DNA from: Flammeovirgaceae bacterium 311
GTDB taxonomy: Bacteria > Bacteroidota > Bacteroidia > Cytophagales > Cyclobacteriaceae
DNA: 64,000 bases
Assembly: GCA_000597885.1 (NCBI GenBank)
Contig: CP004371.1
Coordinates: 620,001 to 684,000, forward strand
Direction of reading: 5' to 3'
A program made the translations under genes and the position numbers. This document shows positions 2,182-61,617 of the stretch, piece after piece (positions within the stretch are counted from its first letter, which is position 1; each line of letters opens with the position of its first letter). The notes below the pieces were generated by a model. It ran no database searches, was not told the DNA's origin, and saw only the letters and a list, made by a program, of their open reading frames with translations.

Positions 2182-2790
2182 TGCCGGAATACCTACCTGA
2201 TATTAAGGTTAATATGATCTGTTTAAGTGCTTAAAGAGAGGCTGTTGTGTTAGCTTTTTCTGTTTTATCAGCCACACCGCTTCCTTTATTTTAAGGAATA
2301 TAGATATTTATCCAGGTCTGCCAATGCTGTTCTGTTATGCCCTGATGCAGATACTGTAGCACCCTGCGCTACTACATCCTTGCATTTTGCTAATACAATC
2401 ACTGGAGCCAGGGGTTTCCGTTCTTACGGATCAGGTACTTTAAGATATTTGGCAGCCTCTTCGCGAATGGACAGCCGGTATATGCCAGCTGAAACAGTGG
2501 CAGTAGTTAATTCAAGGTTTTTTTATTGTAAATCACCTTGCATAACCACACTCAATAAAAATTCTTCACCGTCTTAACTCCTGCCAAGGGAATTAACTGC
2601 TTTTTTGCGTACAGCTAAACTGCGATTTTTATCATTAATGACCAACTGTATCAACTACATGGAATAAGATACAAATATCTGCTTTATTACCATGCTATAA
2701 GGGAAAATAACATAAGCCTTGGTTATGAAAAAAACCCTTTAAGAGGTTTTATAAACATTGCTGTGGGTTTAGAATTACTTTGCTGGTCTT
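2182..2790. other. Gene-poor stretch left of the first att-like repeat
   Basis: About 600 bp without a convincing gene. It should contain the promoter of the minus-strand SUMF1-like gene. A plus-strand reading frame at 2380-2577 has no recognisable motif or ribosome binding site and is not called. No right-end module like those left of the other repeats (CAGGTGCAG box, GCCGGCCGCTGCCACC) is visible here, which fits the idea that this is the outer chromosomal flank of the array rather than the end of another module. Confidence 0.5.
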
Positions 2791-2885
2791 ATTTACCGAT
2801 ACAAAATGTATTAAGTATAATTTTATATCTGATAATTATATGTTAATGTAATAATATGACTACATGAGGTACAAATAAGATACAA
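2791..2885 (+). repeat. att-like repeat, copy 1 (mnmE 3'-end core plus paired GGTACAAA boxes)
   Basis: The core at about 2789-2807 (TTATTTACCGATACAAAAT) is identical over 19 bases to the end of mnmE at 60232-60250, including the A that most other copies have as G. A first box GGTACAAA starts at 2868 and a second, weaker one (GATACAA) ends at 2885. Core start to box end is 95 bp. The AT-rich spacer resembles the bent DNA common in phage attachment sites. That this is an integrase site is inferred from position, sequence and repetition. Confidence 0.75.
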
Positions 2886-2954
2886 GTTTTGTATCAGAAT
2901 TATAAAAAATGATTGTTCTGAAGTTATGGTCTTTCCTTGATTAACCATATGAAT

Positions 2955-3734
2955 CTACAAGTCAAGCCACTCTTTGAAAGCTGTTGCTTTGTTGTTACTG
3001 ATGATGATATCATGTGGAACATTTGGCTGCAGTACAAGAAAAAGTCGCCCTTTGAAATAAGGCCTTACTTCTTTGATGGCTTCTATGTTGACAATTAGTT
3101 GTCTATTGACACGAAAAAACGTACTAACGATTAGCTGTTTTTCCAGTTTGTCTAAAGTATAATCTATGATGAATCGTTTTCCCTGAAAGGTAGTTAGAAT
3201 TACAACTCCTTCTTCTGCCAAAAAAAAAGCAACTTCTTCGCTGGAAATAGTCTTGATGATCTGTCCAGTTTTAACAATAAATCTGGACTTTATATTACTC
3301 TGCTTTGTAGTTACCTGCGTTGAAGTGTTTAACAGTTTGTGTAGTTTGTTCAATTCATGCACCAGCTGATGATTTTGTAGACCTTCGTACTTGCTGAAGG
3401 CTTTTGCTACTGCCTCAAGCTTGATAGGCTTGAGTAGATAATCAATGCTATTCACCTGGAATGCTTCGATGGCATATTGATCAAAAGCGGTAGTAAAAAT
3501 TACTGGGGTCTTCACCTTTACCTGACGAAAAATCTCGAAACTACTCCCATCTGAAAGGTGAATATCGCAGAAGATTAGTTCGGGTGCTTGCTGAAGTCGA
3601 AGCCATTCTACAGACTCTTCCACGGAGCACAGACTAGCAACAACCTCACTTCCTGGTCTAAGCTTAAGCACTAGTGACTTGAGCAGTTCGGCTGCAGGCT
3701 GTTCATCTTCTATGATTATTACCTTCATATTCAT
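2955..3734 (-). CDS. LytTR-family response regulator
   Basis: Cytoplasmic response regulator of 259 residues. The receiver domain (about 3-120) has the acidic pocket IIIEDE, the phospho-acceptor Asp57 in FCDIHLSDG, the switch Thr in FTTAFDQYA and the Lys in YLLKPIKL. The C-terminal LytTR DNA-binding domain (about 150-257) shows FFRVNRQLIVNIEAIKEV. It overlaps the end of the upstream kinase gene by 32 bp, so the two are translationally coupled. A second Met two codons in (3728) would do equally well as start. The gene ends only about 70 bp from the GGTACAAA boxes of att-like copy 1. Target genes are not visible; the neighbouring amidohydrolase is a candidate by proximity only. Confidence 0.93.
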   Translation of the reverse strand: MNMKVIIIEDEQPAAELLKSLVLKLRPGSEVVASLCSVEESVEWLRLQQAPELIFCDIHLSDGSSFEIFRQVKVKTPVIFTTAFDQYAIEAFQVNSIDYLLKPIKLEAVAKAFSKYEGLQNHQLVHELNKLHKLLNTSTQVTTKQSNIKSRFIVKTGQIIKTISSEEVAFFLAEEGVVILTTFQGKRFIIDYTLDKLEKQLIVSTFFRVNRQLIVNIEAIKEVRPYFKGRLFLVLQPNVPHDIIISNNKATAFKEWLDL

Positions 3735-4803
3735 CTGCTGTTAAAAGGGGTAGTTGCACACGAAAAACATCCAGCGTATGCTGGATGGTTACTTCTTCAA
3801 TTGTTAAGTACCTATATCGGTTAATTATATTACTTAAACCTGTTTTTGTGGATTGGATGATTTCTTGCCGAGGTTGTACATTGTTTTCTACCACCAACTT
3901 ATTTTCTATTGTATAGAGCTTAATTAGGAGCGGTGTTTTTTTGGTAGCACTGTTGTGCTTCACAGCATTCTCTAGGAGCATTTGCAAAGAGCAGGGGGGA
4001 AGTTGTAGAAATAATTTGTCACTTGCTATTGCTAATTTAAATTGAATTACCTGACCAAATCGCGTGTGAAGCAAATAAATGTATGCATCTACCAGTTCCA
4101 GCTCTTGCTTCAGCGGCACCAGTATCTTATTTTGAATATCTAGAAAATAACGATATACCTCGGCAAGCTTTTGAACAAATGCTAGAGCTCTGTTAGTATC
4201 CTGCTGAATGACAGCACATAAAACATTCAAGCTGTTGAATAGGAAATGCGGATCTACCTGATTTTTTAAGTTTTGCAGTTGGTACTGCAGGTTGGCCTGC
4301 TGCAGTTGTGCTGCATGTAGCAGGGCAGATTGTAATTGTTTCTGATTTTTAACTCGCTCTACGAAATAATAAAAGAAGAGGGCTACAATGGTGGTGATTA
4401 TATAAACAATGCGTAAACGCCCAGGAGGAAGTTTAGTCTCAGGAAAGAGCAGCATTAGAGGGAGAAGGAAGAGAATGGTTAACAAAGCTAAATTGGTTCC
4501 TACTACAAGTACTGCCTCTAATATTGGCTTTAGGGGCTCTTGGTGTTTATTCATAGCCTTTGACTGCATGAATAAGGAGATCTTAGCCTGAATCCAGAAA
4601 ATTACTAGCAGAAACAGAAAGGCTAAAATCATATCAACTAGCATAACTGTATCAATAGTGAATGAACCATCGAACAGAAAGGATAGTGTGCCAGCATGCA
4701 GGTAGAGGAACATAAAATAGACTAATATGCTGGTTGCTGCAGCTAAACCAATTCTACGAAATATCATTCGGTTGTTTATGATCATAGATGTTATTGTAGT
4801 CAT
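3703..4803 (-). CDS. LytS/YehU-type sensor histidine kinase
   Basis: Membrane histidine kinase of 366 residues. About four hydrophobic segments occupy residues 15-150, with almost no extracytoplasmic domain. A coiled region leads into the His_kinase domain with the phospho-acceptor motif DPHFLFNSLNVL near residue 185. The ATPase part has LPPCSLQMLLENAVKHNS as N box and a degenerate G box (TGLSNIINRYRYL). This is the class that signals to LytTR regulators, and the partner gene overlaps its 3' end by 32 bp. The stimulus is unknown; few-loop sensors of this class tend to sense membrane state or small peptides. Confidence 0.92.
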   Translation of the reverse strand: MTTITSMIINNRMIFRRIGLAAATSILVYFMFLYLHAGTLSFLFDGSFTIDTVMLVDMILAFLFLLVIFWIQAKISLFMQSKAMNKHQEPLKPILEAVLVVGTNLALLTILFLLPLMLLFPETKLPPGRLRIVYIITTIVALFFYYFVERVKNQKQLQSALLHAAQLQQANLQYQLQNLKNQVDPHFLFNSLNVLCAVIQQDTNRALAFVQKLAEVYRYFLDIQNKILVPLKQELELVDAYIYLLHTRFGQVIQFKLAIASDKLFLQLPPCSLQMLLENAVKHNSATKKTPLLIKLYTIENKLVVENNVQPRQEIIQSTKTGLSNIINRYRYLTIEEVTIQHTLDVFRVQLPLLTADEYEGNNHRR

Positions 4804-5131
4804 TCACCTCTAAATGATGAATTAATTACAGAAGATCAGCATATAATAATCTATCATCGCTTCGGTTGTTGTAAAATTAGAATAAACCATATTAAACATT
4901 TCAGCTAAAAAAGTGAACGAGTACCATATAGGTAAATATGATAGGTTTATTTATGTTACATCAGACTTATTTCTTATTTATGGTTGAGCCTTTTGTTGTT
5001 GAGGAGAGATACTCATTCATAGATTAAATATCTCATTTTATTGTTTAGAATTCCAACTTCAAACGAAATAGGTATTTAACTAAGAAACCGGTTCACCTTC
5101 TTTGCTTTTCTTTTAACTAAAAAGTGAAGCA
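4804..5131. other. Intergenic region between divergent genes
   Basis: AT-rich 328 bp between the minus-strand kinase gene and the plus-strand amidohydrolase; it should carry both promoters. I see no hairpin, repeat or small gene. Confidence 0.5.
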
Positions 5132-6421
5132 ATGGAATTGATTAGGAAGTTTCTATTCATCATTTTGATAGTAAATATATGTTGGGCATGTGTACCAACA
5201 AAACATAATGAAGGTGCGACCTTAACTGCAATAAAACATGTGGCAGTAGTGGATGTAACAAATGGCACACTTCTTATTGATCAAACAATCTTAATTCAGG
5301 AAGAAAACATTCTCAGCGTAGGGCCTTCATCTACCATCAAGATTCCAGTTAAAACAAACATTGTTGATGCTCAAGGGAAATATGTTATACCTGGACTTTG
5401 GGATATGCATGTTCATCTCGATATGGCTGGTGAAGAATCATTACCTTATTTCATTGCCAATGGTGTTACAGGGGTCAGAGATATGGGTACTGATCAATTA
5501 GATACTTTAAAGCGTTGGAGAAGAGAAGTGGAGCAAGGACAGAGAATAGGGCCTCACATCATCACTGCTGGCCCCATGCTAGATGGACCTTTTTTTGTTG
5601 ATATTTTCAGAATTACTGTAAAAACAGAAGATGAGGCCAGGGCAGCAGTAGATTCATTAGTAGCCCAAGGAGTAGATTTCATCAAGATTCATCAGCAGAT
5701 TACTCGTGAGGCATATTTTGCAGCGGCTGATCAAGCACAAAAGCATGGCATCTCATTCGTCGGACATAAGCCTAATGTTGTTTCTACCCTTGAGGTTGTG
5801 GAAGCTGGGCAGAAAAGTATAGAGCACATTATTGGCATCCCAGATTCTTCTCAAGTGTCCTTTTCATACATAAAAGAAAAAGGAGCCTGGGTAACTCCAA
5901 CGCTTGTTCTTATAGACAAATTAGCCAATTATCATTCCCTTGTCGCCGAACAGGATGCTCGTATGCCTTTTGTATCTGCATCACTTAAAGAAGCCTGGAA
6001 AAAGCAAACAGAAGCTTGGGGTGAAGGCGTAGATAAAACGGTTAGCATGATGCAAGAAATAAAGCCATTGATGCTTGAACGGACAATTCAGCTCCATAAA
6101 AAAGGAGTGGGTTTGTTGGCTGGTACTGACTTAGGAGTTCCATATATTTTTCCAGGAAGTAGCTTGCATGAAGAGTTAGAATTATATGTTAAATCAGGAA
6201 TGTCCCCTTTGGATGCTTTACGAACTGCAACAATCAACCCAGCAAAGTTTCTAAAGATGGAAGAAACTATTGGATCAGTGCAAGAGGGAAAAATAGCAGA
6301 TCTTGTGGTACTGGATTCAAACCCTTTAGAAGATATTTCTAGCATAAGAAACATTGTAACAGTGGTTTTCAAAGGGAGGGTATATGAAAGAAATAGAACA
6401 GGTACCATAAAGATTAAATAA
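5132..6421 (+). CDS. Metal-dependent amidohydrolase lipoprotein (imidazolonepropionase/prolidase-like)
   Basis: Hydrolase of the amidohydrolase superfamily, predicted to be lipid-anchored in the cell envelope. A short signal peptide ends in the lipobox ICWAC (Cys20). A small beta-sandwich leads to the metal-binding HxH motif in LWDMHVHLDMAG (His93, His95). A lysine in FIKIHQQ near residue 188 could be the carboxylated bridging Lys, GHKP and EHIIG supply further metal-ligand histidines, and GTDLGVPY carries the catalytic Asp. The C-terminus closes the sandwich with the typical GKIADLVVLDSNPLEDI. Members cleave dipeptides, organophosphates or cyclic amides, and the exact substrate cannot be read here. 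It is complete and is the main enzymatic cargo of module E1. Confidence 0.9.
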   Translation: MELIRKFLFIILIVNICWACVPTKHNEGATLTAIKHVAVVDVTNGTLLIDQTILIQEENILSVGPSSTIKIPVKTNIVDAQGKYVIPGLWDMHVHLDMAGEESLPYFIANGVTGVRDMGTDQLDTLKRWRREVEQGQRIGPHIITAGPMLDGPFFVDIFRITVKTEDEARAAVDSLVAQGVDFIKIHQQITREAYFAAADQAQKHGISFVGHKPNVVSTLEVVEAGQKSIEHIIGIPDSSQVSFSYIKEKGAWVTPTLVLIDKLANYHSLVAEQDARMPFVSASLKEAWKKQTEAWGEGVDKTVSMMQEIKPLMLERTIQLHKKGVGLLAGTDLGVPYIFPGSSLHEELELYVKSGMSPLDALRTATINPAKFLKMEETIGSVQEGKIADLVVLDSNPLEDISSIRNIVTVVFKGRVYERNRTGTIKIK

Positions 6422-6424
6422 AAT

Positions 6425-6626
6425 ATGCAGATAGAGTTTCCTGTTTTAAGAACGAAAAGACTGTTGCATAGGCAATTTGAGCCCTCTGATCTTGAAAATG
6501 TATTTTTAGGATTATCTCATCCTGATGTAATTAAATACTATGGGGTAAGCTTTTAGAACATTAGAGGAATCCAGAGAACAGATGCGATTTTTCAAGAATC
6601 TTGAAATGACAAAACAGGAGTTTTAG
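6425..6626 (+). pseudogene. Truncated, frameshifted GNAT N-acetyltransferase
   Basis: The N-terminal third of a RimJ/RimL-type acetyltransferase. The frame from 6425 reads LRTKRLLHRQFEPSDLENV and stops at 6556. One extra T near 6551-6554 breaks the frame: shifting by one base restores RTLEESREQMRFFKNLEMTK, exactly what should follow, up to a stop at 6624-6626. The acetyl-CoA-binding part is missing. The reading ends about 65 bp before att-like copy 2, so truncation probably happened at the module end. Confidence 0.75.
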
Positions 6627-6940
6627 ATACATAAATAAAGACAGAGCTAATAGGCCTTCATTATAAATATTATTATAATATTTATAACTATTTTCGTATA
6701 CAGAATGTAATACAGTTATGTAATACATTGAAGAACATATCATTATAAATTTTAATTTATGCTTTAGGTACAAATAGGGTACAAAAGTAATCTATGACTT
6801 CACGGCTAATCAGATGTTCAGGGACAAATTATTTCATTGACAATGATACAGTATAGTCAGATAGATCAGCCGGATAAGAATAGGGAAGAAGAGATTTAAA
6901 TTTAAAAATGCGGCCTTCCTTTCCCCGGAATATCGATATC
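6627..6940. other. Module boundary E1/E2, no gene
   Basis: Very AT-rich. It holds att-like copy 2 (listed separately) and, after its boxes, a short left-end stretch (CTATGACTTCACGGCTAATC) also recognisable after copy 4 and, more loosely, copies 3 and 6. Short minus-strand reading frames here have no protein-like features. Confidence 0.5.
6691..6785 (+). repeat. att-like repeat, copy 2 (degenerate core)
   Basis: The core CTATTTTCGTATACAGAAT differs from the mnmE end at about four of 19 positions, but the boxes GGTACAAATAGGGTACAAA at 6767-6785 are perfect, and the core-to-box length is again 95 bp. The left-end sequence after the boxes resembles the other copies. Confidence 0.65.
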
Positions 6941-7654
6941 CTAGGAATAAATTGGTGGCTGCGGTGTATCACTGAGGATAAAGCCCTTGCCGTGTACATT
7001 AATGATGCGGATGTTGGCATCTTCGCTCAGATACTTGCGCAGGCGCGAGATAAATACATCCATGCTGCGGCGGTTGAAAAAATCTGCTTCGCCCCAGAGC
7101 CGCTGCAGCACTTCTCGACGGTCAAGGATTTTGCCTTTGCACTCGGTGAGCATCAGCAGCAGTTCGGCCTCTTTCTGGGTCAGCTGTATATGCTGCTCCT
7201 GCTTCTTAAGCAAGAGGTTTTCATAATCGAAGGTGTAGGCGCCAATCGAATAGATGTGACTCTCCGGAGCCGGTGCTGTTTCGGGATAGGCCCGACGCAG
7301 CACCACCCTAATGCGGGCGATCAGCTCTTCTTCGTCGATGGGTTTGCTCAGGTAGTCGTCGGCCCCCAGCTTAAAGCCCTTCAGCTTATCTACTTTCAGG
7401 CTACGGGCCGTAAGGAAAATGAAGGGCAGCTGCGGGTAGTGCAGTTTGATCTGCTGGGCCAAGCTGAAGCCATCAAGCCGGGGCATCATCACATCCAGAA
7501 TGCAGAGCTGAGGGGGCTGTTGCTGAAGCTTCTGCAGGGCCTCTTCACCATTTTTTGCCCAGCATACGTCAAAGTCATGCATGCCGAGATACTCCACGAG
7601 CACATACCCTAGGTTCTCATCATCTTCTACCAAAAGAAGTTTTGTAGTTTGCAT
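6941..7654 (-). CDS. OmpR/PhoB-family response regulator
   Basis: A 237-residue transcription factor of a two-component system. The receiver domain (about 5-120) has LLLVEDDE, the phospho-acceptor Asp in CILDVMMPRLDG, Thr in FLTARS and Lys in DYLSKPI. The winged-helix DNA-binding domain (about 133-230) includes the LTQKEAELLLML helix, the recognition helix RRSMDVFISRLRKYL and the closing VHGKGFIL. It lies 3 bp downstream of its kinase gene on the same strand. The coding DNA is clearly GC-richer than modules E1 and E3, suggesting a different source or closeness to backbone composition. Confidence 0.94.
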   Translation of the reverse strand: MQTTKLLLVEDDENLGYVLVEYLGMHDFDVCWAKNGEEALQKLQQQPPQLCILDVMMPRLDGFSLAQQIKLHYPQLPFIFLTARSLKVDKLKGFKLGADDYLSKPIDEEELIARIRVVLRRAYPETAPAPESHIYSIGAYTFDYENLLLKKQEQHIQLTQKEAELLLMLTECKGKILDRREVLQRLWGEADFFNRRSMDVFISRLRKYLSEDANIRIINVHGKGFILSDTPQPPIYS

Positions 7655-7657
7655 TGC

Positions 7658-8920
7658 TTAATGTTGAGGTAAACCAATGACAAATTCACTGCCTTGTCCG
7701 GGTTGGGAGCTAAGCCCGATCTGTCCCTGGTGCAGCTCTATGATATTCTTGACATAGCACAGGCCCAAACCAAAGCCTTTGATGGTGTAGAGATCGCCTT
7801 TTTTGATCCGGTAAAAGCGCTCAAAAATGTGCGCCTGATGGCTGGCTAAAATGCCGATGCCATTGTCCCGAATGCTCAGGGAAAGGCTGCCGTTTTCGGA
7901 GTCCCGGGTGCGAATCAGGATGTCGGGGGCAGTTTCGGTATACTTCACGGCATTGTCCAGCAGGTTGTAGATTACGTTTGCTAGATGGGTTTTGTCGGCC
8001 AGTATCAGAGGATTAAGCGCCTCCAGCTGTAGTTGAATGCGCCCGCCCTGCTCCTGAATGGTCAGCTCAAAGCTTTCGCTGCTCTTGCGAATGAGCTCAT
8101 GAACATCTACTGATGCTTTTTCCAGTTTCATGTTCCCTGAATCGATCAGGGCCATTTGAAGTACCTTGTCTACCTGAGCACTCAACCGCTTGCTTTCTTC
8201 ATCGATAATGCTGCTACACTTTTTAAGCCGCTCCGATTGCTGCACTTCTTCCGATTTTCTAAGAATGCTGGAGGCCATGTTGATGGAAAATATTGGCGTT
8301 TTCAGCTCATGGGTCATGTTGTTGATGAAATCATCTTTGAGCTCCGTGTGCCGCTTCTGGCGTAGGATGGTGAAAATGGTAAAGACAAAGGCTGCCAGGA
8401 TAATCGATATCAGGCCCAGGGAAGGGGCCAGGGTGGCGGCATACTCCTGCCAGTGCTCAGCCTCCTGTTGGGGTAGGCGCAGGTACAGGTGGTGGTGTAT
8501 GTTGCCTTTGCAAAAAAAGTGGCTGCCTACGCTGTTGCAGCTGGGGAGTTGCTCTGGAGCTACATTGCCCAGCAGCACTTCGCCCTGCTGGTTATAGAGG
8601 CCAAAGTCGTAGTTGAGTGCCAGGCCGGCCCGTTCAAACTCGCCGCTGAGAACTGTATGAATGGCCTGTGTTAGTTCCAGGCTGTCGTAGAGCATGGGAA
8701 TATCACAATTGTAATGTCCGGCCCGAATTTCGGCATAGATAGGATCTTCCTGCATGTGGTGCTTGGCATTTTCCAGCACCGTCTGCACCTGGCTCTCCTG
8801 GTTTTTGCGGTGAAGCGTAAGGGCACGATCCATCCATAGGCTCTGCTGCCTGAGCAGGCCAAAGAGGGCTAGGCTTACTAACCCAATGATTCCCATGATG
8901 ATATAGCGCGAGAGCTTCAT
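7658..8920 (-). CDS. Two-component sensor histidine kinase (HisKA/HATPase_c)
   Basis: Membrane sensor kinase paired with the OmpR-type regulator 3 bp downstream. An N-terminal transmembrane helix, a periplasmic domain of about 140 residues and a second helix (LGLISIILAAFVFTIFTIL) precede the HisKA motif NNMTHELKTPIFSINMASS. The ATPase domain has NLLDNAVKYT (N box), DNGIGI (G1) and GFGLGLCYVKNIIELH (G2). I place the start at 8920 because a GGAG ribosome binding site sits just upstream; a longer frame from 8965 is open but lacks such a site. The closest well-known design is a PhoR/BaeS-like kinase. The ligand is unknown. Confidence 0.93.
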   Translation of the reverse strand: MKLSRYIIMGIIGLVSLALFGLLRQQSLWMDRALTLHRKNQESQVQTVLENAKHHMQEDPIYAEIRAGHYNCDIPMLYDSLELTQAIHTVLSGEFERAGLALNYDFGLYNQQGEVLLGNVAPEQLPSCNSVGSHFFCKGNIHHHLYLRLPQQEAEHWQEYAATLAPSLGLISIILAAFVFTIFTILRQKRHTELKDDFINNMTHELKTPIFSINMASSILRKSEEVQQSERLKKCSSIIDEESKRLSAQVDKVLQMALIDSGNMKLEKASVDVHELIRKSSESFELTIQEQGGRIQLQLEALNPLILADKTHLANVIYNLLDNAVKYTETAPDILIRTRDSENGSLSLSIRDNGIGILASHQAHIFERFYRIKKGDLYTIKGFGLGLCYVKNIIELHQGQIGLSSQPGQGSEFVIGLPQH

Positions 8921-9143
8921 GCTATTCTCCTTTTTTATAGAATAAATGTACTGCTTTAGCCGCAATTCTACTACCCTTTAACTTTTCATTAACACTTTTA
9001 ACCTTTTGTTGGCTTACGTTAACCTCTTGTTAGCCCACGGGCCTCCTGCTGCTTTCTATTTTTGCCTATCTCCTTCAAACAAAACCAAAAGCAGCATGAT
9101 AGGGAGCAGGCTACTATTGGTTCTACCCTTAAAATATACAGCC

Positions 9144-10226
9144 ATGCATAAAAGGAAATTAGTAAGTATCGCCATAGCATTTGCATTTCTGATACTAGCG
9201 GCCACAGGTGTGTTCATGTACATATTTCCCTATGAAATGCTAACCGCATCCATTCATACCTTTTTTGGTATGGCATTTATTCTAGCTGCGGGGCTTCATC
9301 TTAAAAACAACTGGATGGCCTTAAAAAACTACAGCAGTGAAAAGAAAAAAGGCGCTGCACTCCCCTTCACGAAAGCCTTTATGGTGGTTGTCCTGGTGGC
9401 TCTCTTGCTCTTAATGGGCTTGTATGTAGAGTTTCCTCCTTTTAGTTCGGTGTACGCATGGGGTAATGCTTTTAGGAATGAACAGTTGGGCAAAAGCACA
9501 AAAACAAATGAGTACGAGCACATACTTCTACAGCAGGCATTAGGAGACGCTGCTGTTGCAATAGAGGTAAAGAAAGGAGCTGCTTTTCAATATCCACTCT
9601 TCGCCGTTTGGGCCGAAGACCTGGAGGGCAACTATTTACAAACCTTATATGTATCCAGGAGCATTGCCACCAGCGTATTCAAATATGGAAAAAAGGAGGG
9701 GGAGCAGTGGGAGCCTGCTGTTTTACGCAGGCCTGAAGCACTGCCTCGCTGGTCGCACAAGAGAGGTATACAAGCAGCCGATGGTTATCACCTGCCATCG
9801 GGCGGAACTGCAGACCAGGACCTGGACGGCTTCACAGGTGCTACCCCGCACAATAACTTCATTGTTAGCAGCAAACTGCAGCTAAAAAGTCTGGATACAG
9901 CGCGGATATTCTTTGAAGTTAACCAGTCATACGACTGGAATGAGTATTACAGCAAGGATCGCTTTCCGGAAGATAAGATCTACAGTGGTTCCGGAAAAGT
10001 AGGGCAGCCAGCCCTGGTGTACACTACAGTAGTTGACTTAAAAAGAGCGGGCAAAAAAAGCTACTTACTGGAGCCCCTGGGCCACAGCCATCATTCAGGA
10101 GAGACGGGCGAGTTATTTCCAGACTTCTCCAATATTACCACAGCCCTTGAAATTGTAGACAGAATTATTCTGACGGTTGACAAGCTAACACCACCCGCAG
10201 GAAAAAAGAGCTTAGCACTGGAGTAG
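9144..10226 (+). CDS. DUF4405-like membrane protein with large C-terminal periplasmic domain
   Basis: Probable membrane protein of 360 residues from the Met at 9144; the frame is open back to 9006 but that part is not protein-like. Three hydrophobic helices lie in the first 130 residues, two of them carrying histidines (SIHTFFGMAF, AGLHLKNNW), as in cytochrome b-like DUF4405 proteins. The remaining roughly 230 residues are soluble and contain HLPSGGTADQDLDGFTGATP, resembling the D-x-x-T-G-A-T-P block of DUF2271 domains. A heme-linked redox role is an inference from the paired histidines. It is divergent from the two-component pair and could be its target. Confidence 0.6.
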   Translation: MHKRKLVSIAIAFAFLILAATGVFMYIFPYEMLTASIHTFFGMAFILAAGLHLKNNWMALKNYSSEKKKGAALPFTKAFMVVVLVALLLLMGLYVEFPPFSSVYAWGNAFRNEQLGKSTKTNEYEHILLQQALGDAAVAIEVKKGAAFQYPLFAVWAEDLEGNYLQTLYVSRSIATSVFKYGKKEGEQWEPAVLRRPEALPRWSHKRGIQAADGYHLPSGGTADQDLDGFTGATPHNNFIVSSKLQLKSLDTARIFFEVNQSYDWNEYYSKDRFPEDKIYSGSGKVGQPALVYTTVVDLKRAGKKSYLLEPLGHSHHSGETGELFPDFSNITTALEIVDRIILTVDKLTPPAGKKSLALE

Positions 10227-10423
10227 CCTGAAAAGTTTTCATCTGCAGCTCAACAAACCAACTACAAGCTACGACTTTGCGGGCAGTGTAATCGGTGAAG
10301 AGATTAGGGGCAAATTTAGGGTCCGATAGCAGGGGCTGCAGCCCCGCCTGCTGAGCTTTAGCCTCCGGAGGATCAGCAATGTAACAGCATCAAAAATTTT
10401 CTAAGAAACTATCCACTACTCAT

Positions 10424-11026: not shown

Positions 11027-11087
11027 CCCATGCAGGGCCGATTGTGAAAACAGAAATAGAATAAACAGCGACAAACAGGGAAAAGGT

Positions 11088-11963: not shown

Positions 11964-11999
11964 TAGCCATTACCACTATTCATAAACAAATAAAGAGCA

Positions 12000-13087: not shown

Positions 13088-13107
13088 TATTCCCATCCTT
13101 TTCTACA

Positions 13108-53873: not shown

Positions 53874-54149
53874 AAAAGTATTGCTGTAGATCCGGCTGTA
53901 CTGGATTCTTACAGTGGACGCTATGAAGTCAACCCCAAGTTTGTGATAACAGTAATAGCCAAAGAAGGCCGCATTTTTACCCAGCCTACAGGACAACCTG
54001 CTGTTGAGATCTTTGCCGAAACCTCAGAGGTATTTTTCCCTAAAGCATTTCCTGGAAAGATTACATTCAATAAAGATGCACAGGGAAATATAACAAGCCT
54101 TACCCTTGAACGGGGTGGGAAAAAAATGGAAGCTGTTAAGTTAAAATAA
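53874..54149 (+). pseudogene. Detached C-terminal domain of the serine hydrolase
   Basis: In-frame continuation after the TGA: IAVDPAVLDSYSGRYEVNPK, then IFTQPTGQPAVEIFAETSEV and KITFNKDAQGNITSLTLERG, a DUF3471/lipocalin-like beta domain that normally ends such hydrolases. A GTG at 53943 could start a separate product, but a nonsense mutation is the simpler reading. Confidence 0.7.
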
Positions 54150-54534
54150 TCGATTTAGCAGCAGCGTGTAAAGGAAATACTCGCCTACATATCAAAATCT
54201 TTTATAAAAATATATCAGATTAAATTTCCAAGTATAAGGGAGTTAATACAGGGGCGCTCAACAATTATACCTGGAATCGATATCCCGAGAAGACCTTATA
54301 TGTTGAAGATTCTATTACAGCTTTCGAAGTTGGAGAAGAAATCAAAGTTGCCTCTACAAATTCTATAGGTTTTTAAATGAAAAAACCTGCTATGAATAAG
54401 TTGAATTTAGCGCTTAAATAAGTCAGGGGATAATATAAAGTGTCTTTAATCCTGATTTTTTTACAGGCTTTGGAAAAAGGAAAGAGAAATTATGCTTCTT
54501 TTTAAGGATAAGGGATAAACACAAGCTATAAATT
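54150..54534. other. Gene-poor stretch with a small gene fragment
   Basis: At 54228-54376 an open stretch without a good start reads YKGVNTGALNNYTWNRYPEK, then EDSITAFEVGEEIKVASTNS to a TAA. It looks like the tail of an unknown gene. The rest is non-coding and leads to the ABC transporter genes. Confidence 0.3.
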
Positions 54535-55455
54535 ATGGACAATGCTGAAATTATAAGGACAAAGGAGCTTAGCTATTTTTTCCATAAAGACCAACAAGTT
54601 TTAGAAGGGATAAACCTGCAAGTGAAGAGAGGCAGTATTTATGGCTTTCTTGGACCAAACGGAGCTGGTAAAACAACATCCTTGCGGTTAATACTGGGCC
54701 TTCTGAAAGCACAACAGGGCTCGATCCACCTCTTCGAGAAAGATATCAACAAATCAAGAATTGAATCCTTAGATAGAATAGGCTCTCTGATCGAGCAACC
54801 CTCTTTATATGGTCATCTATCAGCAGAAGAAAATCTTAGAATCTATTTAAAGATTTATCGGGCTAAAGAAAGTGATATTGAACGGGTATTGAAGCTTGTT
54901 AATCTACAGGATACAGGTAGGAAAAAGGCCAGGAACTTTTCACTTGGTATGAAACAGCGTCTCTCAATAGCATTAGCTCTTTTACATGGTCCAGAACTTT
55001 TAATTTTAGACGAACCCACCAATGGACTAGATCCACATGGGATTGTCGAGATAAGGGAACTCATAAGGAGACTAAATAGAGAGAATGGAGTATCAATTAT
55101 GGTGTCGAGTCACCTTTTATCCGAGGTAGAACGTATGGCCACGCATGTTGGTATTATAAATAAAGGAAAATTATTATTCCAGGGAACTCTTCAAGAGCTA
55201 CAAAATATGAAAGTTCAGCAAAATCGCACCCATTTAGATACCAGTAATAATTCTGCCGCTCTACAATTACTACAGAAGGATTATGGAGCTGAACAAAGAA
55301 ATGATCGCTTAGTAATACCATCCCTACAAAAAGAAGTCGTTGCCCAACTAGTTCGTAGACTTGTTCAACAGAATATCGACATATATCAGTTGAAGTCAGA
55401 GCAGTTCGATCTGGAACAATTATTTATGAACTTAACATCTAATCAGAACCAATGA
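54535..55455 (+). CDS. ABC transporter ATP-binding protein (BcrA-like)
   Basis: 306 residues. Walker A FLGPNGAGKTTSLRLILG, signature NFSLGMKQRLSIALALL, Walker B LLILDEPTNGLDP and the switch His in VSSHLLSEVERMATHVG. The C-terminal 80 residues form the extra domain of drug or lantibiotic-resistance ATPases. Overlaps the permease gene by 4 bp (ATGA). Probably exports or clears an antimicrobial peptide or lipid. Confidence 0.95.
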   Translation: MDNAEIIRTKELSYFFHKDQQVLEGINLQVKRGSIYGFLGPNGAGKTTSLRLILGLLKAQQGSIHLFEKDINKSRIESLDRIGSLIEQPSLYGHLSAEENLRIYLKIYRAKESDIERVLKLVNLQDTGRKKARNFSLGMKQRLSIALALLHGPELLILDEPTNGLDPHGIVEIRELIRRLNRENGVSIMVSSHLLSEVERMATHVGIINKGKLLFQGTLQELQNMKVQQNRTHLDTSNNSAALQLLQKDYGAEQRNDRLVIPSLQKEVVAQLVRRLVQQNIDIYQLKSEQFDLEQLFMNLTSNQNQ

Positions 55456-56228
55456 AACTAATAATATCTATTCGTGCAGAATTACTAAAGATAAAAGGAA
55501 CTGCTTCAATCTGGTTAAGCGGTATAGTCGGAGCAATCGTCCCACTTGGTTTGTTTCTTCATTTTGTTATCTGGCCAAACGATGGAATAAAAGAAATTGC
55601 CCCCAATGCTTGGCAGCAATTTTTTATCCTTGGTTGGGAGGTTTTTACTGCATTTCTTTTAACACTATTTATCGTGCTTCTTTGCACATCCATTCCACAA
55701 ATAGAAGTAAAAAATAATACTTGGAAACAAGTGTTTTCTTCTCCCCAACCGGTTCATAACATTTTTCTTTCAAAGTTTGTGGTCATACAGGTAATGATCC
55801 TCTTCTGCTTTGCGAGTTTTAATATTTTGATGATTTTTGCAGTTGTCTTGCTGGATTTTATACATCCTATTTATGAATTTTTTAAAAAAGATGTAAATTT
55901 CGATATACTGTTCCAATTGAACGTCAAGACTTACATCTCTATATTAGCCTTAAGTGCGTTCCAGTACTATTTATCCTTACGTTTTGCAAATTTTATATTT
56001 CCAGTAGGTATAGGCATAATTTTAATGATTGGTGCATTTGTAGTTACCTCATTTAATTGGAGTTATAATGATTTTTACCCATACACATATCCAATTCTAT
56101 CATTCGATTCTGTGAAGGATGCTAGCGGAGCATTCATTCAGACTCATGAGTTGATTTCAATAGCCTGCTCCGTATTTTTTCTTCTTGCAGGATGGATTAC
56201 TATGAAAATGCAAAAAGTAAAAGCATAA
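55452..56228 (+). CDS. ABC-2-type permease (lantibiotic/bacitracin-type)
   Basis: 258 residues with six predicted helices, opening IISIRAELLKIKGTASIWLS, typical of ABC-2 and BcrB/MutG-like permeases. Two large loops are hydrophilic; the last helix is LISIACSVFFLLAGWITM. Coupled to the ATPase upstream. One permease may form a homodimer. No dedicated regulator adjoins; the LytTR pair upstream in the module is a candidate, since such pairs often control peptide-resistance exporters. Confidence 0.88.
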   Translation: MKLIISIRAELLKIKGTASIWLSGIVGAIVPLGLFLHFVIWPNDGIKEIAPNAWQQFFILGWEVFTAFLLTLFIVLLCTSIPQIEVKNNTWKQVFSSPQPVHNIFLSKFVVIQVMILFCFASFNILMIFAVVLLDFIHPIYEFFKKDVNFDILFQLNVKTYISILALSAFQYYLSLRFANFIFPVGIGIILMIGAFVVTSFNWSYNDFYPYTYPILSFDSVKDASGAFIQTHELISIACSVFFLLAGWITMKMQKVKA

Positions 56229-56534
56229 TCTGAATCGTTAGACATTAAAAGTAAATTTGGAACGTCTTTTATTGATCATCTTCATAAGCTTCTAATGAAG
56301 AGTGGAATAGTAAAACCAAAATTGGGCGTTTCGTCTTCCTGAATTTTAGTTTCATGAAGAAGGAGTACTGGAGCAAAGTGAATTTTTATAAAGGTAGAGT
56401 TAATAATTTCAAATTAAACAGCCGGTTTTCTCTCTCAAAACGAAGTGTAAGCTTCCCTAATAGTCAGATAAATTTAAGTTGAAATTCTTTTCTAAGAGAG
56501 CCCTTCAATAAAATCGTCTTATCACAATTCATTA

Positions 56535-56846
56535 ACCTCTCCAAAATCCAAGAAACTTAACTACAGATTTCTAGTAAAGACTCACCAAAAAATAGGAGAG
56601 GAGCATCACAAAGACAGATTTCTCCAAAACACACAGGAAGCATCCAGGAGAATTTTTTGAGGTCCAAAATGTGGCATCTTTGCCTTAAAAACCGCTTCCA
56701 GATGCAGCAAAAGACCTTTTTTAGGCTATGGCTACGGTTCGAATCCTGCCACCTATATTGTTGAATTATCTGAACATTTTCATTCGTCAGGTGCAGTAGT
56801 ATATCCAATTACAAAAATTATAAATATATAAATATTAAATATAATT
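56535..56846 (+). repeat. Right-end module of E8
   Basis: About 260 bp closely related to 36757-37020: GACTCACCAAAAAATAGGAG, CACAGGAAGCATCCAG, TCCAAAATGTGGC, TTTTTTAGGCTATGG and TACGGTTCGAATCC. The GCCGGCCGC segment is deleted. The box CAGGTGCAG at 56789 lies 58 bp left of the core. The preceding 300 bp (56229-56534) shows nothing recognisable. Confidence 0.65.
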
Positions 56847-56942
56847 ATTTACCGATACAGAATGTAATATATTTTCGTAGTAATCTATATATGAGCATGT
56901 TATAATTGAAATTATTTGTTTGAGGTACAAATGGGGTACAAA
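56847..56942 (+). repeat. att-like repeat, copy 9
   Basis: Canonical core TTATTTACCGATACAGAAT, boxes GGTACAAATGGGGTACAAA at 56924-56942, 96 bp. The boxes and the following ACATAAATTGAAGGCTTATC match copies 6 and 7. Confidence 0.85.
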
Positions 56943-57004
56943 GTTTACACATAAATTGAAGGCTTATCCTTTACTTTTGATCATCGATTTCACTGATTAC
57001 GGAG

Positions 57005-57103
57005 ATGGACATTACCGAAGAGCTTTTTCAAGCACGTAATGGTAAAGAGGCTCTTGATTTGATTCAAGGCCTATTAAAACAACTAGCGCATATTCCAGAT
57101 TAA
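57005..57103 (+). pseudogene. Response-regulator fragment
   Basis: A 32-codon frame MDITEELFQARNGKEALDLI and so on, equal to helix one to helix two of a receiver domain (compare MDIAEEIDYVHDGVEGLQYL in the regulator at 29463). The bases before it, in the same frame, also read like the end of helix one. It stops at 57101-57103, overlapping the stop of the convergent LytTR gene. A relic caught at a module's left end. Confidence 0.45.
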
Positions 57104-57810
57104 TTCCTTTCATAAAATCCCTGCATCCGCTTACTTACATCATTTCTATAAGCTCTTCCAACAGGAAGGGTTTTTCCCGAAATCTCAACCTCAGAAGCAG
57201 ACCAGCTTTGAATTTTATTTAATGGCACAAGGAAAGCCCGATGAATACGAATAAAGCCTTTACTGCTCAATTCTTCCTCCAGGTCACTTATCTTCCGGCG
57301 AACCTGGAACGTATTATGTTCTGTAACAATTTTTATAGTATCTTTCTGGCTTTCCAGATATTGTATTTCATCAACAGCAATCCTAATCATTTTTTTATCG
57401 GAATGGACAAATAAAAAAGATCCGGGAATTTTTTCATTACCAGATAAATCCCTGACTGATTGCTTTTCAGATTTAATTTTTGCTACTGCTTTCAAAAACC
57501 TGTCGAGGGATATTGGTTTTAATAAATAATCCACAACGTCAAGCTCAAAACCCTCAATGGCATATTCTCGGTAAGCAGTGGTAAAAATAACTTTAGGAGG
57601 GTTTTTAAGTGATTTAAGGAAATCAATACCTGAAAGCTTAGGCATATGGATATCAAGGAATATCAGGTCTACAGATTGCTTTTGTAATGCCTGAAACGCA
57701 ATGATTGCATTTTCAAAAGTGCCAACAACCTCAAGATCTTCCAGATGTGCTATATGTGACTCTAGAACTTCAATGGCCAATGGTTCATCATCTATTATAA
57801 AGCAGGTCAT
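57100..57810 (-). CDS. LytTR-family response regulator
   Basis: 236 residues. Receiver domain with CFIIDDEPLAIEVLESHIAH, phospho-acceptor Asp in LIFLDIHMPKLSGIDFL, Thr in FTTAYREYAIEGF and Lys in YLLKPISLDRF. LytTR domain (about 128-233) with FIRIHRAFLVPLNKIQSW. Overlaps the kinase gene by 4 bp. Third such pair in the window. Confidence 0.94.
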   Translation of the reverse strand: MTCFIIDDEPLAIEVLESHIAHLEDLEVVGTFENAIIAFQALQKQSVDLIFLDIHMPKLSGIDFLKSLKNPPKVIFTTAYREYAIEGFELDVVDYLLKPISLDRFLKAVAKIKSEKQSVRDLSGNEKIPGSFLFVHSDKKMIRIAVDEIQYLESQKDTIKIVTEHNTFQVRRKISDLEEELSSKGFIRIHRAFLVPLNKIQSWSASEVEISGKTLPVGRAYRNDVSKRMQGFYERN

Positions 57811-58907
57811 TCTTTTTCAGCTCCTAGTGGTTTATCCAGACTTACAGATAGAAAAATGCTAAAATTTTCTTTTTCATCAGAGATGTACAGTTTGTAGTCT
57901 TTGCCATAAAGAAGTTCTAGCCGACGCTTTACATTTTTAAGACCAATACCATCTTTACATTTCTGCAGGTCTGCTCCGGGAGAATCGCTGCTTTTATCGC
58001 TGCTTTTACTGTTATCAACCTTCAGCATTAATCTATTCAGATTTATCTCCAGCTTTATATCAATCCACATATCCTGCAGCTGCTGGCTTACGCCGTGTTT
58101 AAAGCTGTTTTCAATAAAAGGTAGAATAAGCAGTGGCGGAATATAATTTCCGTTGATATCACCCTTGACATCGTATGCTAATCTTAATTTATTGCCATAT
58201 CGGATTTTTTCAAGGTGGATATAACTTTCAATCAAATCAAGTTCTTTTTTTAGCGGTACTGTGGGGGTATTACTTTCGTAGAGCATGTAATCCAGCAGAT
58301 CAGAGATTTTAAGCACCACTTCCGGAGCTTTATCCGACTTCTTAAGGGTTAGAGCATAAAGATTATTAAGTGTATTAAAAAGAAAATGCGGATGTATCTG
58401 TGCTTTTAGAAACTTCAGCTCCGCATTTACTTTTTCACTCTCTATTTTTTGGGCAGCTCTGTCTTTTTCCAGCCAGTATTTCCCTAGCTTAATAAAAGCC
58501 GCCAGCATAACTACTGGATAAATAGCTAAAGTATGCCTTAAAATCTCAAAAGCTGGTATGCTTAAAGTAGTATTGGTACGCTCAGGATATAGGAGCGGAT
58601 TTATTACATAAAAATCATAAAAGTACTTGAAAATTCCACCTGCTAATAGGATTAGCGCAAAGAAAACTGAAAAAATAAGGATCTTTTTAGTAATAAAATA
58701 TCGAGGTATGAGTACGTAAAGAACGATGTAAGTAACTATGATTTTGGGGAGAAGGCTTAATCCTTGGCTTAAAAATGTATCGGTATAATTGTTTCTTGGT
58801 AAGCTTCCTATAGTGAATACGTAGTAGATGAGGTATGCCAACCAAAAGGTTATATGCCAGACAACCCTGGTCTTCTCATTAAAATATTTTTCAATTGTAG
58901 AATTCAT
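57807..58907 (-). CDS. LytS/YehU-type sensor histidine kinase
   Basis: 366 residues. About four transmembrane helices in residues 18-150, a coiled linker, the phospho-acceptor motif LKAQIHPHFLFNTLNNLYAL near residue 190, then the ATPase domain with LILPFIENSFKHGVSQ and GIGLKNVKRRLELLYGK. Partner of the overlapping regulator. Few extracytoplasmic residues, so the stimulus is likely in or at the membrane. Confidence 0.93.
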   Translation of the reverse strand: MNSTIEKYFNEKTRVVWHITFWLAYLIYYVFTIGSLPRNNYTDTFLSQGLSLLPKIIVTYIVLYVLIPRYFITKKILIFSVFFALILLAGGIFKYFYDFYVINPLLYPERTNTTLSIPAFEILRHTLAIYPVVMLAAFIKLGKYWLEKDRAAQKIESEKVNAELKFLKAQIHPHFLFNTLNNLYALTLKKSDKAPEVVLKISDLLDYMLYESNTPTVPLKKELDLIESYIHLEKIRYGNKLRLAYDVKGDINGNYIPPLLILPFIENSFKHGVSQQLQDMWIDIKLEINLNRLMLKVDNSKSSDKSSDSPGADLQKCKDGIGLKNVKRRLELLYGKDYKLYISDEKENFSIFLSVSLDKPLGAEKE

Positions 58908-59143
58908 AAGATATCCTTAAAGCTAAGTTATTGCCATGATATATTTCTTGTTAGAAGACAAAATGCACTGTACCTACTACAAACAACAGTTTAAACACTT
59001 CTAACAACAGTTTTTACAATTTCATTGCCGTTTGTCGTGCCTTACCTGCTGTCTGTCTCTATGTATAAAATCACAATAAAATATGTGATACATTCACCTC
59101 AGTGTAAATCAAAAGCCCTTAGGCTGGGAAATAAAACCTTAAA

Positions 59144-59572
59144 ATGATTAACCCCATGAAAAATTTAAAACTAGTAGCGGTCTTTTCACTGCTAATCTTT
59201 TTTGCCGGAACAGTTCCCAATGCAGGTTATGAAGTTGGTGACACTGCACGTGATTTCCAACTTAAGAATGTAGATGGTAAAATGGTATCCTTGGCTGATT
59301 ATAAAGGGGCCAAAGGGTATATTGTTGTTTTTACCTGCAATACCTGCCCTTATTCAGTTATGTATGAAGACAGGATTAAAGCGCTGCATGATAAATTCGC
59401 AGATAAAGGATATCCTGTTATAGCTATCAACCCAAATGACGAGGTGAAGCAGCCTGGCGAATCATATGATGATATGATTGTACGAGCCAAAGAAAAGGGA
59501 TTTAGATTCCCTTACGTTCAGGATAAAACACAGGAGATTGCCAGGGCTTACGGAGCTACTGCAAAATGTTGA
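59144..59572 (+). CDS. AhpC/TSA-type redoxin, 5' copy of a scrambled gene
   Basis: Signal segment and redoxin domain almost identical to the gene at 12476: VFSLLIFFAGTVPNAGYEVG, the CNTCPYSVMYEDR motif, and NPNDEVKQPGESYDDM. The frame ends at 59572, soon after EIARAYGAT, because a second partial copy of the same gene begins there out of frame. The C-terminal cis-Pro loop and final strands are missing, so this product alone is unlikely to fold fully. Confidence 0.7.
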   Translation: MINPMKNLKLVAVFSLLIFFAGTVPNAGYEVGDTARDFQLKNVDGKMVSLADYKGAKGYIVVFTCNTCPYSVMYEDRIKALHDKFADKGYPVIAINPNDEVKQPGESYDDMIVRAKEKGFRFPYVQDKTQEIARAYGATAKC

Positions 59573-60053
59573 TGGAAAAATGGTTTCCCTGGCTGATTAT
59601 GAAAACGCCAAAGGGTATATCGTTGTTTTTACCTGCAATACATGTCCTGCTTCCGTCATGTATGAGGACCGGATTATAGCGCTGCATGATAAATTCGCAG
59701 ATAAAGGATATCCTGTTATTGCTATCAATCCAAATGACGAGGCGAAACAGCCTGGCGATTCGTATGATAAAATGATTGTACGAGCCAGAGAAAAAGGGTT
59801 TAAATTTCCCTACGCGCAGGATAAAACACAGGAGATTGCCAGGGCTTACGGAGCTACGAATACGCCGCATGTTTACGTGTTAAATAAAGATCGCAAGGTC
59901 GTATATATTGGCTCAATCGATAATAACGCCAGGAATGCCGCAAGTGCAGATAAATTGTATGTTGAGGATGCCGTTAAAGCTCTTGAGAGTAACAAGGATC
60001 CGGAAGTCTCTAAAACTAAAGCTATCGGCTGTACGATTAAGTGGGCATCGTAA
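59561..60053 (+). pseudogene. AhpC/TSA-type redoxin, 3' copy without signal peptide
   Basis: Starts abruptly at what is residue 42 of the intact gene (NVDGKMVSLADYENAKGY) and runs on through CNTCPASVMYEDR, NTPHVYVLNKDRKVVYIG and GCTIKWAS. A Met codon at 59580 or read-through from another frame could start it, but no signal peptide exists. The simplest history is two tandem genes joined by deletion between their middles. Followed by the same terminator as the copy at 12476. Confidence 0.7.
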
Positions 60054-60073
60054 AACTCTTATCCTTATTTACA

Positions 60074-60102
60074 GGCCATCCCTTGGGATGGCCTTTTTTT
60101 TT
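60074..60102 (+). terminator. Rho-independent terminator after the scrambled redoxin gene
   Basis: Stem GGCCATCC / GGATGGCC with loop CTTG, then nine T. Homologous to the terminator at 13108. Transcripts from mnmE run the other way and would meet it as A-run first. Confidence 0.88.
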
Positions 60103-60231
60103 ACTCCAGGCTCAGTTCGAAACCCGCTGCGCCGGCCGCTGCCACCCCCATAGCTAACCTATATACACTTTTTCACTCTTCAGGTGCAGCAGACCAACTA
60201 CCCATGGATGAATTTAGAAACAATGCATATA
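60103..60231 (+). repeat. Right-end module of E9, abutting mnmE
   Basis: Contains CAGTTCGAAACCCGCTGCGC, CCGGCCGCTGCCACC and the box CAGGTGCAG at 60181-60189, which is 53 bp left of the mnmE-end core. The sequence is related to the right-end modules at 13134, 36757 and 56535. This is the junction between the accreted array and the chromosomal mnmE gene. Confidence 0.65.
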
Positions 60232-60250
60232 TTATTTACCGATACAAAAT
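60232..60250 (+). other. Presumed attachment core inside the 3' end of mnmE
   Basis: TTATTTACCGATACAAAAT: stop, K, G, I, C and F codons of mnmE read from the plus strand. The nine copies to the left repeat it. No GGTACAAA boxes follow within mnmE, as expected of the chromosomal half of the site. In SGI1 of Salmonella the attachment site is the corresponding 18 bp of trmE/mnmE. Confidence 0.75.
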
Positions 60251-61617
60251 TTCGAAAATATATTTGCCAGTAGATCGTCCGTGGTTACTTCCCCAGTGAT
60301 CTCTCCAAGGTGGTATAGCGCAGTTCTGATGTCCAGGGCTAGTAAATCGCCTGTCACTCCTATTTCCAAACCGTTCAGCACATCCTGCAGGGCAGCATGG
60401 GTTTTCAGAAGGCTTTCGTAATGGCGAGCGGTGGTGACTATCGTATTGCCGGTGCGGAAGCTGGCCAGGTTGGCTTTCTCCAGGATTTGCTGCTTTAAAT
60501 CCTCCAGATTGGTTTTATCTTTTGCAGAAATGTAAAGCATCTGCTCAAAGCCTTTTAGCGCCTCCATCAGCTCTTGAGATGCGCTGTCAACTTTGTTGCC
60601 GATGGGGAGGAAGGGTTTGCCAAGATTCTCCAGCAGGTTGATCTCTTTGCCGATGCTTTCAGGAGTTTCATCTGAAAGATCGAACAGGTAGAGGATAATG
60701 GAAGCCTGCTGCAGCTTTTCCCGGGTGCGTTTCACGCCCATGGCTTCTACAATATCGGTAGTTTCGCGCAGACCTGCGGTATCAATAAACCTGAAATGGA
60801 TGCCCTCGATGATCAGCTCATCTTCGATAAAGTCACGGGTGGTACCGGCTATTTCTGATACAATTGCTTTTTCCTCGTTCAGCAGGGCGTTTAGCAGGGT
60901 GCTTTTGCCGGCATTGGGTTTGCCTGCAATCACTGTGGGCACGCCTTCCTTCAGCACACTACCTACGGCAAAGCTCTTGATGAGCCGTGCAATTACTGTC
61001 TGCAATTCATTTACCAGCTTTCGCAGGTCATTGCGGTTGGCAAACTCTACATCTTCTTCGCCAAAATCAAGCTCAAGCTCCACCATCGAAGCAAAATGGA
61101 TCAGCTTCTCCCTTAAGTCTTTTATTTCCTGGCTGAATCCGCCACGCATCTGGTGGAGGGCGGCTTCGTGCGCTGCGGCAGAATCGGCCTGGATCAGGTC
61201 GGCTACGGCTTCTGCCTGCGCCAGGTCGAACTGTCCATTCAGGAAGGCACGCTGGGTGAACTCGCCTGCTTTGGCCGGACGGGCTCCCTGCCGGATGAGC
61301 AGGTTCAGGATTTCGCGGACAATGAATTGGCTGCCATGACAGCTGATCTCAACCACATTTTCGCGGGTAAAGGAACGGGGTGCCACAAAAATGGTTGCCA
61401 GCACCTCATCCAGAATATGCCCTTCTTCGGTACGGATGGTGCCAAAGTGGGCGGTATGTGAAGCCTGTTTATCAAGGTCTTTGCCCCTGAATACTTTATT
61501 GGCAATGGCAATGGCATCGGGACCGGAGAGTCTGATAACAGCAATGGCGCCGCTTCCCTGGGGGGTTGCCAGCGCCACAATGGTGTCGTCGGTTGCTAAG
61601 GCTGAAAAAAGGGCCAA
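60232..61617 (-). CDS. mnmE: tRNA modification GTPase MnmE
   Basis: 461 residues, normal family length. With MnmG it forms the cytoplasmic complex that adds carboxymethylaminomethyl groups to U34 of certain tRNAs. The N-terminal tetrahydrofolate-binding domain (IVALATPQGSGAIAVIRLSG to about 118) precedes a helical domain and an inserted G domain: G1 GKPNAGKSTLLNALL, the EEKAIVSEIAGTTRD switch, G3 DTAGLRET and G4 NKVD. The last residues are F-C-I-G-K with the essential Cys. The gene is followed by the array of att-like repeats derived from this end. A thioredoxin gene lies 6 bp upstream on the same strand. Confidence 0.97.
   Translation of the reverse strand: MALFSALATDDTIVALATPQGSGAIAVIRLSGPDAIAIANKVFRGKDLDKQASHTAHFGTIRTEEGHILDEVLATIFVAPRSFTRENVVEISCHGSQFIVREILNLLIRQGARPAKAGEFTQRAFLNGQFDLAQAEAVADLIQADSAAAHEAALHQMRGGFSQEIKDLREKLIHFASMVELELDFGEEDVEFANRNDLRKLVNELQTVIARLIKSFAVGSVLKEGVPTVIAGKPNAGKSTLLNALLNEEKAIVSEIAGTTRDFIEDELIIEGIHFRFIDTAGLRETTDIVEAMGVKRTREKLQQASIILYLFDLSDETPESIGKEINLLENLGKPFLPIGNKVDSASQELMEALKGFEQMLYISAKDKTNLEDLKQQILEKANLASFRTGNTIVTTARHYESLLKTHAALQDVLNGLEIGVTGDLLALDIRTALYHLGEITGEVTTDDLLANIFSKFCIGK

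Follow-up and report, generated by a model that had tools for sequence, protein, structure and literature searches.

Why does the 3' end of a single gene, mnmE, recur along one stretch of the genome of Flammeovirgaceae bacterium 311 (here G000), and what kind of DNA lies between the copies? The G000 assembly is one contig of 6,665,617 bp, and the window, by which we mean the whole 64,000-nucleotide stretch that was analysed, covers its bases 620,001-684,000. The mnmE gene lies near the right end of the window on the minus strand (60232..61617) as an open reading frame (ORF) of 461 amino acids ending ...FCIGK*. Orthologues that are 61-69% identical were detected at E<=1e-100 in seven of the nine other genomes searched. 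Judged from the sequences, it is likely that the array beside mnmE was built by serial site-specific accretion of modules that carry no integrase and resemble cis-mobilizable elements (CIMEs). An original prediction made from the window alone had proposed that integrative modules accreted serially at a single attachment (att) site, and this is still the reading that the evidence supports best.

Copies of the mnmE end and their distribution

The attB-type core is the last 19 bp of mnmE (60232-60250 on the plus strand), which encode the stop and last codons of the gene and now form the right-most site of the array. Nine copies of this 3' end lie between 2789 and 56845, all on the plus strand, and the true mnmE stop is at 60232. 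Every copy is paired with an arm motif, GGTACAAATnnGGTACAAA, located 79 bases from the start of the core (+79) and having 0-2 mismatches. We call an arm P' when the core lies upstream of it and P when the core lies downstream. The nine sites are:

2789..2886, plus strand: core and P' arm at +79 (2 arm mismatches)
6688..6785, plus strand: core (4 mismatches) and perfect P' arm at +79
13277..13374, plus strand: core (1 mismatch) and perfect P' arm at +79
17164..17261, plus strand: decayed core (5 mismatches) and P' arm (2 mismatches) at +79
24125..24222, plus strand: core (2 mismatches) and perfect P' arm at +79
27040..27137, plus strand: perfect core and perfect P' arm
37076..37173, plus strand: perfect core and perfect P' arm
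42125..42222, plus strand: core (2 mismatches) and P' arm (1 mismatch)
56845..56942, plus strand: perfect core and perfect P' arm

From left to right the sites have 0, 4, 1, 5, 2, 0, 0, 2 and 0 mismatches to the core TTATTTACCGATACARAAT. When core and arm were scored together over 36 bases, the nine sites had 0-7 mismatches, the end of mnmE 11 and the next positions in the window 14. The best position in a 60-kb control stretch of G000 (480,001-540,000) had 14 mismatches of 36. None of the nine core copies lies inside an ORF of at least 100 amino acids. The original prediction had described nine copies in one orientation, made up of the mnmE stop and last codons and lying in no intact gene other than mnmE; all of this holds, with the positions given there being 2-3 bases too high.

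We built a sequence-only profile from 15 sites and searched G000 with it, scoring 150 of 2,561 first-look candidates and keeping matches at E<=0.1. This gave 12 matches, all on the plus strand and all at 573-677 kb, with mnmE at 680.2 kb. They comprise the nine window sites and three that lie further left: one at 604,686 in good condition, one at 599,679 that has decayed (E 6.1e-9) and, at 573,415, a relic (E 0.019). The array as first described was correct for the window and too short by these three. BLAST of one 120-bp site against G000 returned eight own-genome matches and a one-mismatch pattern search returned six, all forward; both sets lie within the window. Scatter of the repeat over the genome, which had been named as grounds for giving up the idea, was seen in none of the BLAST, pattern and profile searches, whose matches lie only beside mnmE. 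The left limit of the array could not be placed by synteny with four relatives, since the gene natively downstream of their mnmE (L274-L277) has no orthologue in 480-700 kb beyond the surroundings of mnmE itself. At one of these loci (L275; G003 C13:116917-117297) a second, partial mnmE C-terminus of 99 amino acids, 65% identical to that of G000, lies downstream of the full gene.

An exact arm pair was found in 22 of 390 genomes of the same order, a sample that did not include the congener used here for comparison, Cesiribacter sp. SM1 (G001). G000 has six copies and every other genome at most two; one match was seen in the backward control. The profile found ten matches in G001 (two of them weak, at C31:50672 and on C27), two in G016, four in G060 and six in G059. 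Some of those in G060 and G059 are weak, and one in G059 is its own mnmE end. There were no matches in G002, G003 or G012. In the G001 and G002 assemblies we found no mnmE and only weaker GTPase matches, reflecting either an assembly gap or loss.

One-armed sites of a similar kind are present in two metagenome-assembled genomes. In G060, integrase-less modules of about 2.7 kb and 2.0 kb and a third one follow mnmE, bounded by sites with core and P' arm; the last 150-odd bases of the mnmE contig are the start of the next contig. One small protein there matches the PADLOC candidate family PDC-S09 (E 2.9e-24), and other toxin-antitoxin-like readings were made by eye. In G059 two sites, separated by 1,259 bp, lie where a contig ends, and a different contig carries a third. 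Its mnmE is on yet another contig, so that a link of the sites to mnmE is putative in this genome.

Stretches resembling a tRNA T-arm (GGTTCGAATCC and variants) are located behind terminator-like runs at 13147, 36955, 56736 and 60114, 100-130 bp to the left of four cores, and similar ones occur in G001. A tmRNA origin of these stretches was rejected because the 3' end of the G000 tmRNA differs. The window contains no tRNA genes and no Rfam families at gathering score.

The mnmE-targeting integrase elements and what the array lacks of them

We surveyed such sites by scanning a genome collection for GAGGTACAAATnnGGTACAAA, which gave at least 120 loci, and added two viral stretches to reach 122 loci. 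Titles were read for 80 of the matches listed in the scan and 78 were Bacteroidota; neither of the two stretches found in the viral collection has an mnmE-type core. The 122 loci listed contain 125 exact arm positions, of which 59 are P-type, 47 are P'-type and 19 are neither. Among these listed matches, the mnmE C-terminus lies to the right of 51/59 P-type arms and 0/47 P'-type arms. On their left, 36/59 P-type arms (35 of the 48 with at least 1 kb of sequence there) have an integrase that is related to the ones of G016, G041 and G002, and 33/59 have both mnmE and integrase. Among the same matches, the arm spacing is 134-142 in 49/59 P-type cases; for P'-type it is 54-58 in 39/47, 67 in one and 78-79 in seven, three of these from G001. 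The P' spacings cluster at 56/57, 67 and 78/79 (L093-L214), in steps of about 11 bp, or one helical turn.

Elements in other genomes end on one side with integrase, P arm (about -139), core and mnmE, and on the other with a core followed by a P' arm at +56/57, 67 or 78/79. Many of the cores form a palindrome about the end of mnmE (TTACTTTC-CGATACA-GAAAGTAA). All four features (mnmE, integrase, P end and P' end) occur together in G016, G062, G064, G071 and G075. The G016 element is 12.65 kb long with P' at +79, and about 98 kb separate the P' site from the P end in G061. Tandem P-core-P' junctions are present on four contigs (L099, L150, L178 and L186). The three integrases that were scanned all have SAM-like and Phage_integrase domains, and two of them an arm-binding domain. 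This defines, from sequence, the two termini of a family of integrase elements in Bacteroidota that target mnmE. L082 (G002 C55) encodes, at 13629-14744, a full-length relative that shares 53% identity with the G016 integrase and adjoins phage-like genes (capsid- and portal-like by eye); an arm-like pair with 3 mismatches lies at 15068.

All nine window sites have the core of the mnmE 3' end and a P' arm at the fixed spacing of +79. This match to the far ends of the integrase elements identifies the sites of the array as belonging to the P' side (attL type) of the mnmE-targeting integrase family.

Of the two arm types of such elements, the array has retained P' only. At the nine window sites there is an attL-type core with a P' arm at one end and, at the other end, a core with no P arm. 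An integrase and P arm next to mnmE, as in complete elements, are not present in G000. We compared 21 array-type sites (ten in G000, seven in G001 and two each in G060 and G059). Their P' arms have 0-3 mismatches. In each of the ten G000 sites the arm lies at +79, and in one G001 site each it lies at +70 and +80. To the left of the 21 sites, the best P arm candidates have 6-10 mismatches, with a null median of 8, and two sites reach the 5% level of 6. G000 has nine Phage_integrase matches, none in the array, and no IntI-type integrase was identified beside it. A search of G000 with the G016 integrase gave no full-length relative, the best match being 31% over the C-terminal part, and tblastn of three integrases against 520-700 kb gave a best E of 0.76. 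Pfam scans of 33 of the 71 window ORFs of at least 100 amino acids found no integrase, transposase or relaxase family, conjugation genes not having been profile-searched over the whole array. We also considered the integrases of G000 itself as drivers and rejected them: near its nine recombinase genes a single GGTACAAA occurs once, and never a pair.

Gene content and comparison with Cesiribacter

Modules between neighbouring sites are 2.9-14.7 kb in size. Their contents, from Pfam unless stated otherwise, are:

2789..6687: LytTR response regulator, histidine kinase, amidohydrolase
6688..13276: response regulator, histidine kinase, DUF4405 protein, EamA transporter, thioredoxin-like and AhpC/TSA proteins
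13277..17163: short-chain dehydrogenase, DUF1440-like proteins (below the Pfam cut-off), amine oxidase
17164..24124: TetR, ECF sigma factor, BrkB-family membrane protein; large PAS kinase (by eye)
24125..27039: YetF/DUF421 fragment, PAS kinase, response regulator
27040..37075: PAS kinase, several response regulators, CheB- and CheB/CheR-PAS-like proteins (from the ORF list, by eye)
37076..42124: cNMP-binding regulator, cyclase, alpha/beta hydrolase, F420-type oxidoreductase
42125..56844: AraC, epimerase, F420-type oxidoreductase, luciferase-like monooxygenase, LytTR regulator; further kinase, hydrolase and ABC genes (by eye)
56845..60231, adjoining mnmE: histidine kinase, redoxin gene copies; LytTR regulator (by eye)

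The sizes agree with those first given for the gene sets. The description of these sets as unrelated holds only in part: several modules have stretches of up to a few hundred bases in common directly after the arms, and modules 6688-13277 and 56845-60232 are 83-87% alike over about 1 kb at their right ends. A redoxin segment is present in three copies, 87-89% identical, in two modules (12597-12896, 59265-59564 and 59563-59862). Window bases 44795-45019 are 84% identical to G001 C54:7020-7241, which directly follows a P' arm there. This looks like the remnant of another left end, belonging to a lost site near 44.6 kb, so that the 14.7-kb module 42125..56844 is probably a composite of two. To the left of the window, module 604,686-622,789 contains IS110 and IS1 transposase genes. 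Six window proteins compared with PADLOC as possible defence genes gave no match.

For homology, G001 and G002 were searched in full, with window parts 2789-22700 and 40300-60232 only. In two comparisons between G000 and G001, homology ends at the repeat. Identity of about 90% over 1,370 bp between 24125 and G001 C29:16748 ends at the core and is at background past the arms; an unrelated pair was similar at the site only. Likewise, 927 bp at 94% between 17164 and G001 C21:124420 end at the core, with 0.56 over the next 50 bp. Boundaries that never fall at repeats, the second ground on which the idea was to be given up, are therefore not what we see. The two genomes also share flanks in the same order (G000 582,960-585,519 and 636,243-637,169; G001 C21:116,679-119,239 and 123,502-124,425). 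The interval between these flanks measures 50.7 kb in G000, where it contains five sites, and 4.3 kb in G001, where none was found.

Probable accretion at mnmE, its alternatives and known systems

We propose that modules were added in succession to the mnmE 3' end, each by site-specific recombination. This would have been the work of a tyrosine integrase of the Bacteroidota family that binds paired GGTACAAA arms, with strand exchange presumably at CGATACA. Each module would have joined the core next to mnmE and kept the gene intact, which would push older modules outward. Having no integrase, the modules would have moved with help. Such help may have come in cis, from an element with an integrase alongside which the modules travelled in tandem and which was lost afterwards, as in the CIME accretion model, or alternatively in trans. 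Because G000 now has no integrase of the mnmE-type family, the array is probably immobile at present and would remain so as long as no such element arrives. From their layout, the roughly ten blocks lying head to tail beside mnmE look like a long-used gene dock. The farther a site lies from mnmE, the less well it tends to be conserved (leave-one-out rho 0.64, p 0.048, n=10), and profile scores show the same trend when two decayed sites from outside the model are included (rho 0.77, p 0.003, n=12). This gradient weakly fits insertion next to mnmE.

Several points weigh against serial accretion. Profile scores of the ten training sites alone give no significant gradient (rho 0.60, p 0.067), and the G000 profile search rests on the 150 of 2,561 candidates that were scored. 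In addition to the two shared segments that end at repeats, a third block (46439-50264) does not: it matches three pieces of G001 C30:5885-12467 at 92-94% identity, and no site was detected in that part of G001. The block contains oxidoreductase and monooxygenase genes and lies outside any detected site; since it ignores the sites, some cargo seems to have moved or stayed by other means. The amine-oxidase homology with G001 has its left limit at 16243, inside a gene and at no site. No excision, circle or transfer of modules has been observed. Also to be counted is that simple decay of complete elements would require many independent losses for integrase and P arm to be gone from every module.

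Such decay is nonetheless possible, if doubtful: each module may once have been a full integrase-bearing element from which integrase and P arm have disappeared. Relatives do have complete elements and their tandem junctions at mnmE, several sites and modules in G000 are decayed, and module 604,686-622,789 carries its two insertion sequence (IS) transposase genes. However, tblastn detected no trace of an integrase in 520-700 kb, and the P arm is missing at 10/10 G000 sites while the P' arms are nearly perfect. We think it very improbable that the copies are a dispersed repeat or regulatory element merely resembling the mnmE end. The stretches shared after the arms would suit such a repeat, but it is not dispersed and is always on one strand, and in other genomes the integrase elements at mnmE are delimited by sites built in the same way.

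An identical one-armed, integrase-less layout at 21 sites in G000, G001, G060 and G059, together with the G060 modules of 2.0-2.7 kb directly after mnmE, raises another explanation, in which modules would circulate like integron cassettes as circles of core and P' arm and be inserted in trans by mnmE-type integrases. We regard this as unlikely. G000 has no integrase of that family, five strands of the sites folded as DNA gave z of -1.97 to +1.40 and no support for attC-like folding, and the larger modules contain many genes. A broader suggestion sees in the integrase-free modules, with their single P' arm, a gene-cassette system that recurs in Bacteroidota, the modules being inserted in trans or in cis by the mnmE-type integrases of visiting elements; we offer it tentatively and think it somewhat improbable. 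If true, it would mean ordered, integron-like arrays with multi-gene cassettes and double-stranded sites. If a foreign integrase can insert one-armed modules, Bacteroidota would have a gene-capture route comparable to integrons, for whole operons. Under serial accretion, the reading we prefer, this would be one genus in which gene blocks with no integrase came to line up at the mnmE site as at a long dock.

Chromosomal integrons collect different gene modules at one site, in an order that possibly reflects age. The array is like them in having different modules at one site and a possible age order. It differs in that its modules are multi-gene and that neither an integron integrase nor folded attC-like sites were identified. 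CIMEs, as PMC5704250 describes them, lack integration and transfer genes, are bounded by attL and attR, are stacked at the 3' end of one gene by site-specific recombination and are mobilised together with a neighbouring element that bears an integrase. The array resembles these ICESt1-related elements in its integrase-less stacking at a single gene end, with an attL-type site at each window module. It differs in having about ten modules in a row, none with an integrase, in keeping only the P' arm and in its Bacteroidota host, and accretion is what we infer for it.

The original prediction had set the array beside Salmonella genomic island 1 (SGI1), whose target is the last 18 bp of trmE/thdF and which forms tandem arrays of up to six copies in transconjugants (PMC2297512). 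As far as the description of SGI1 goes, this likeness lies in the target site at the mnmE end only: SGI1 arrays are copies of one integrase-bearing element, whereas the mnmE array has different cargo and no integrase. An island of Riemerella, also a member of the Bacteroidota, targets an Arg-tRNA according to PMC6764341. We found no tandem mnmE array described for Bacteroidota in the open-licence literature of PubMed Central, and to that extent the earlier statement that the array was not recognised as described stands. It does not stand for arrays of this general kind, which are known at ssrA of Dehalococcoides. There, according to PMC3146451, several tandem islands lie within 100 kb downstream, bounded by a direct repeat of the 3' end; 16 islands have an integration module and 15 do not. 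The Dehalococcoides islands use a serine recombinase and ssrA, whereas the array described here has a tyrosine-integrase site with paired arms at mnmE.

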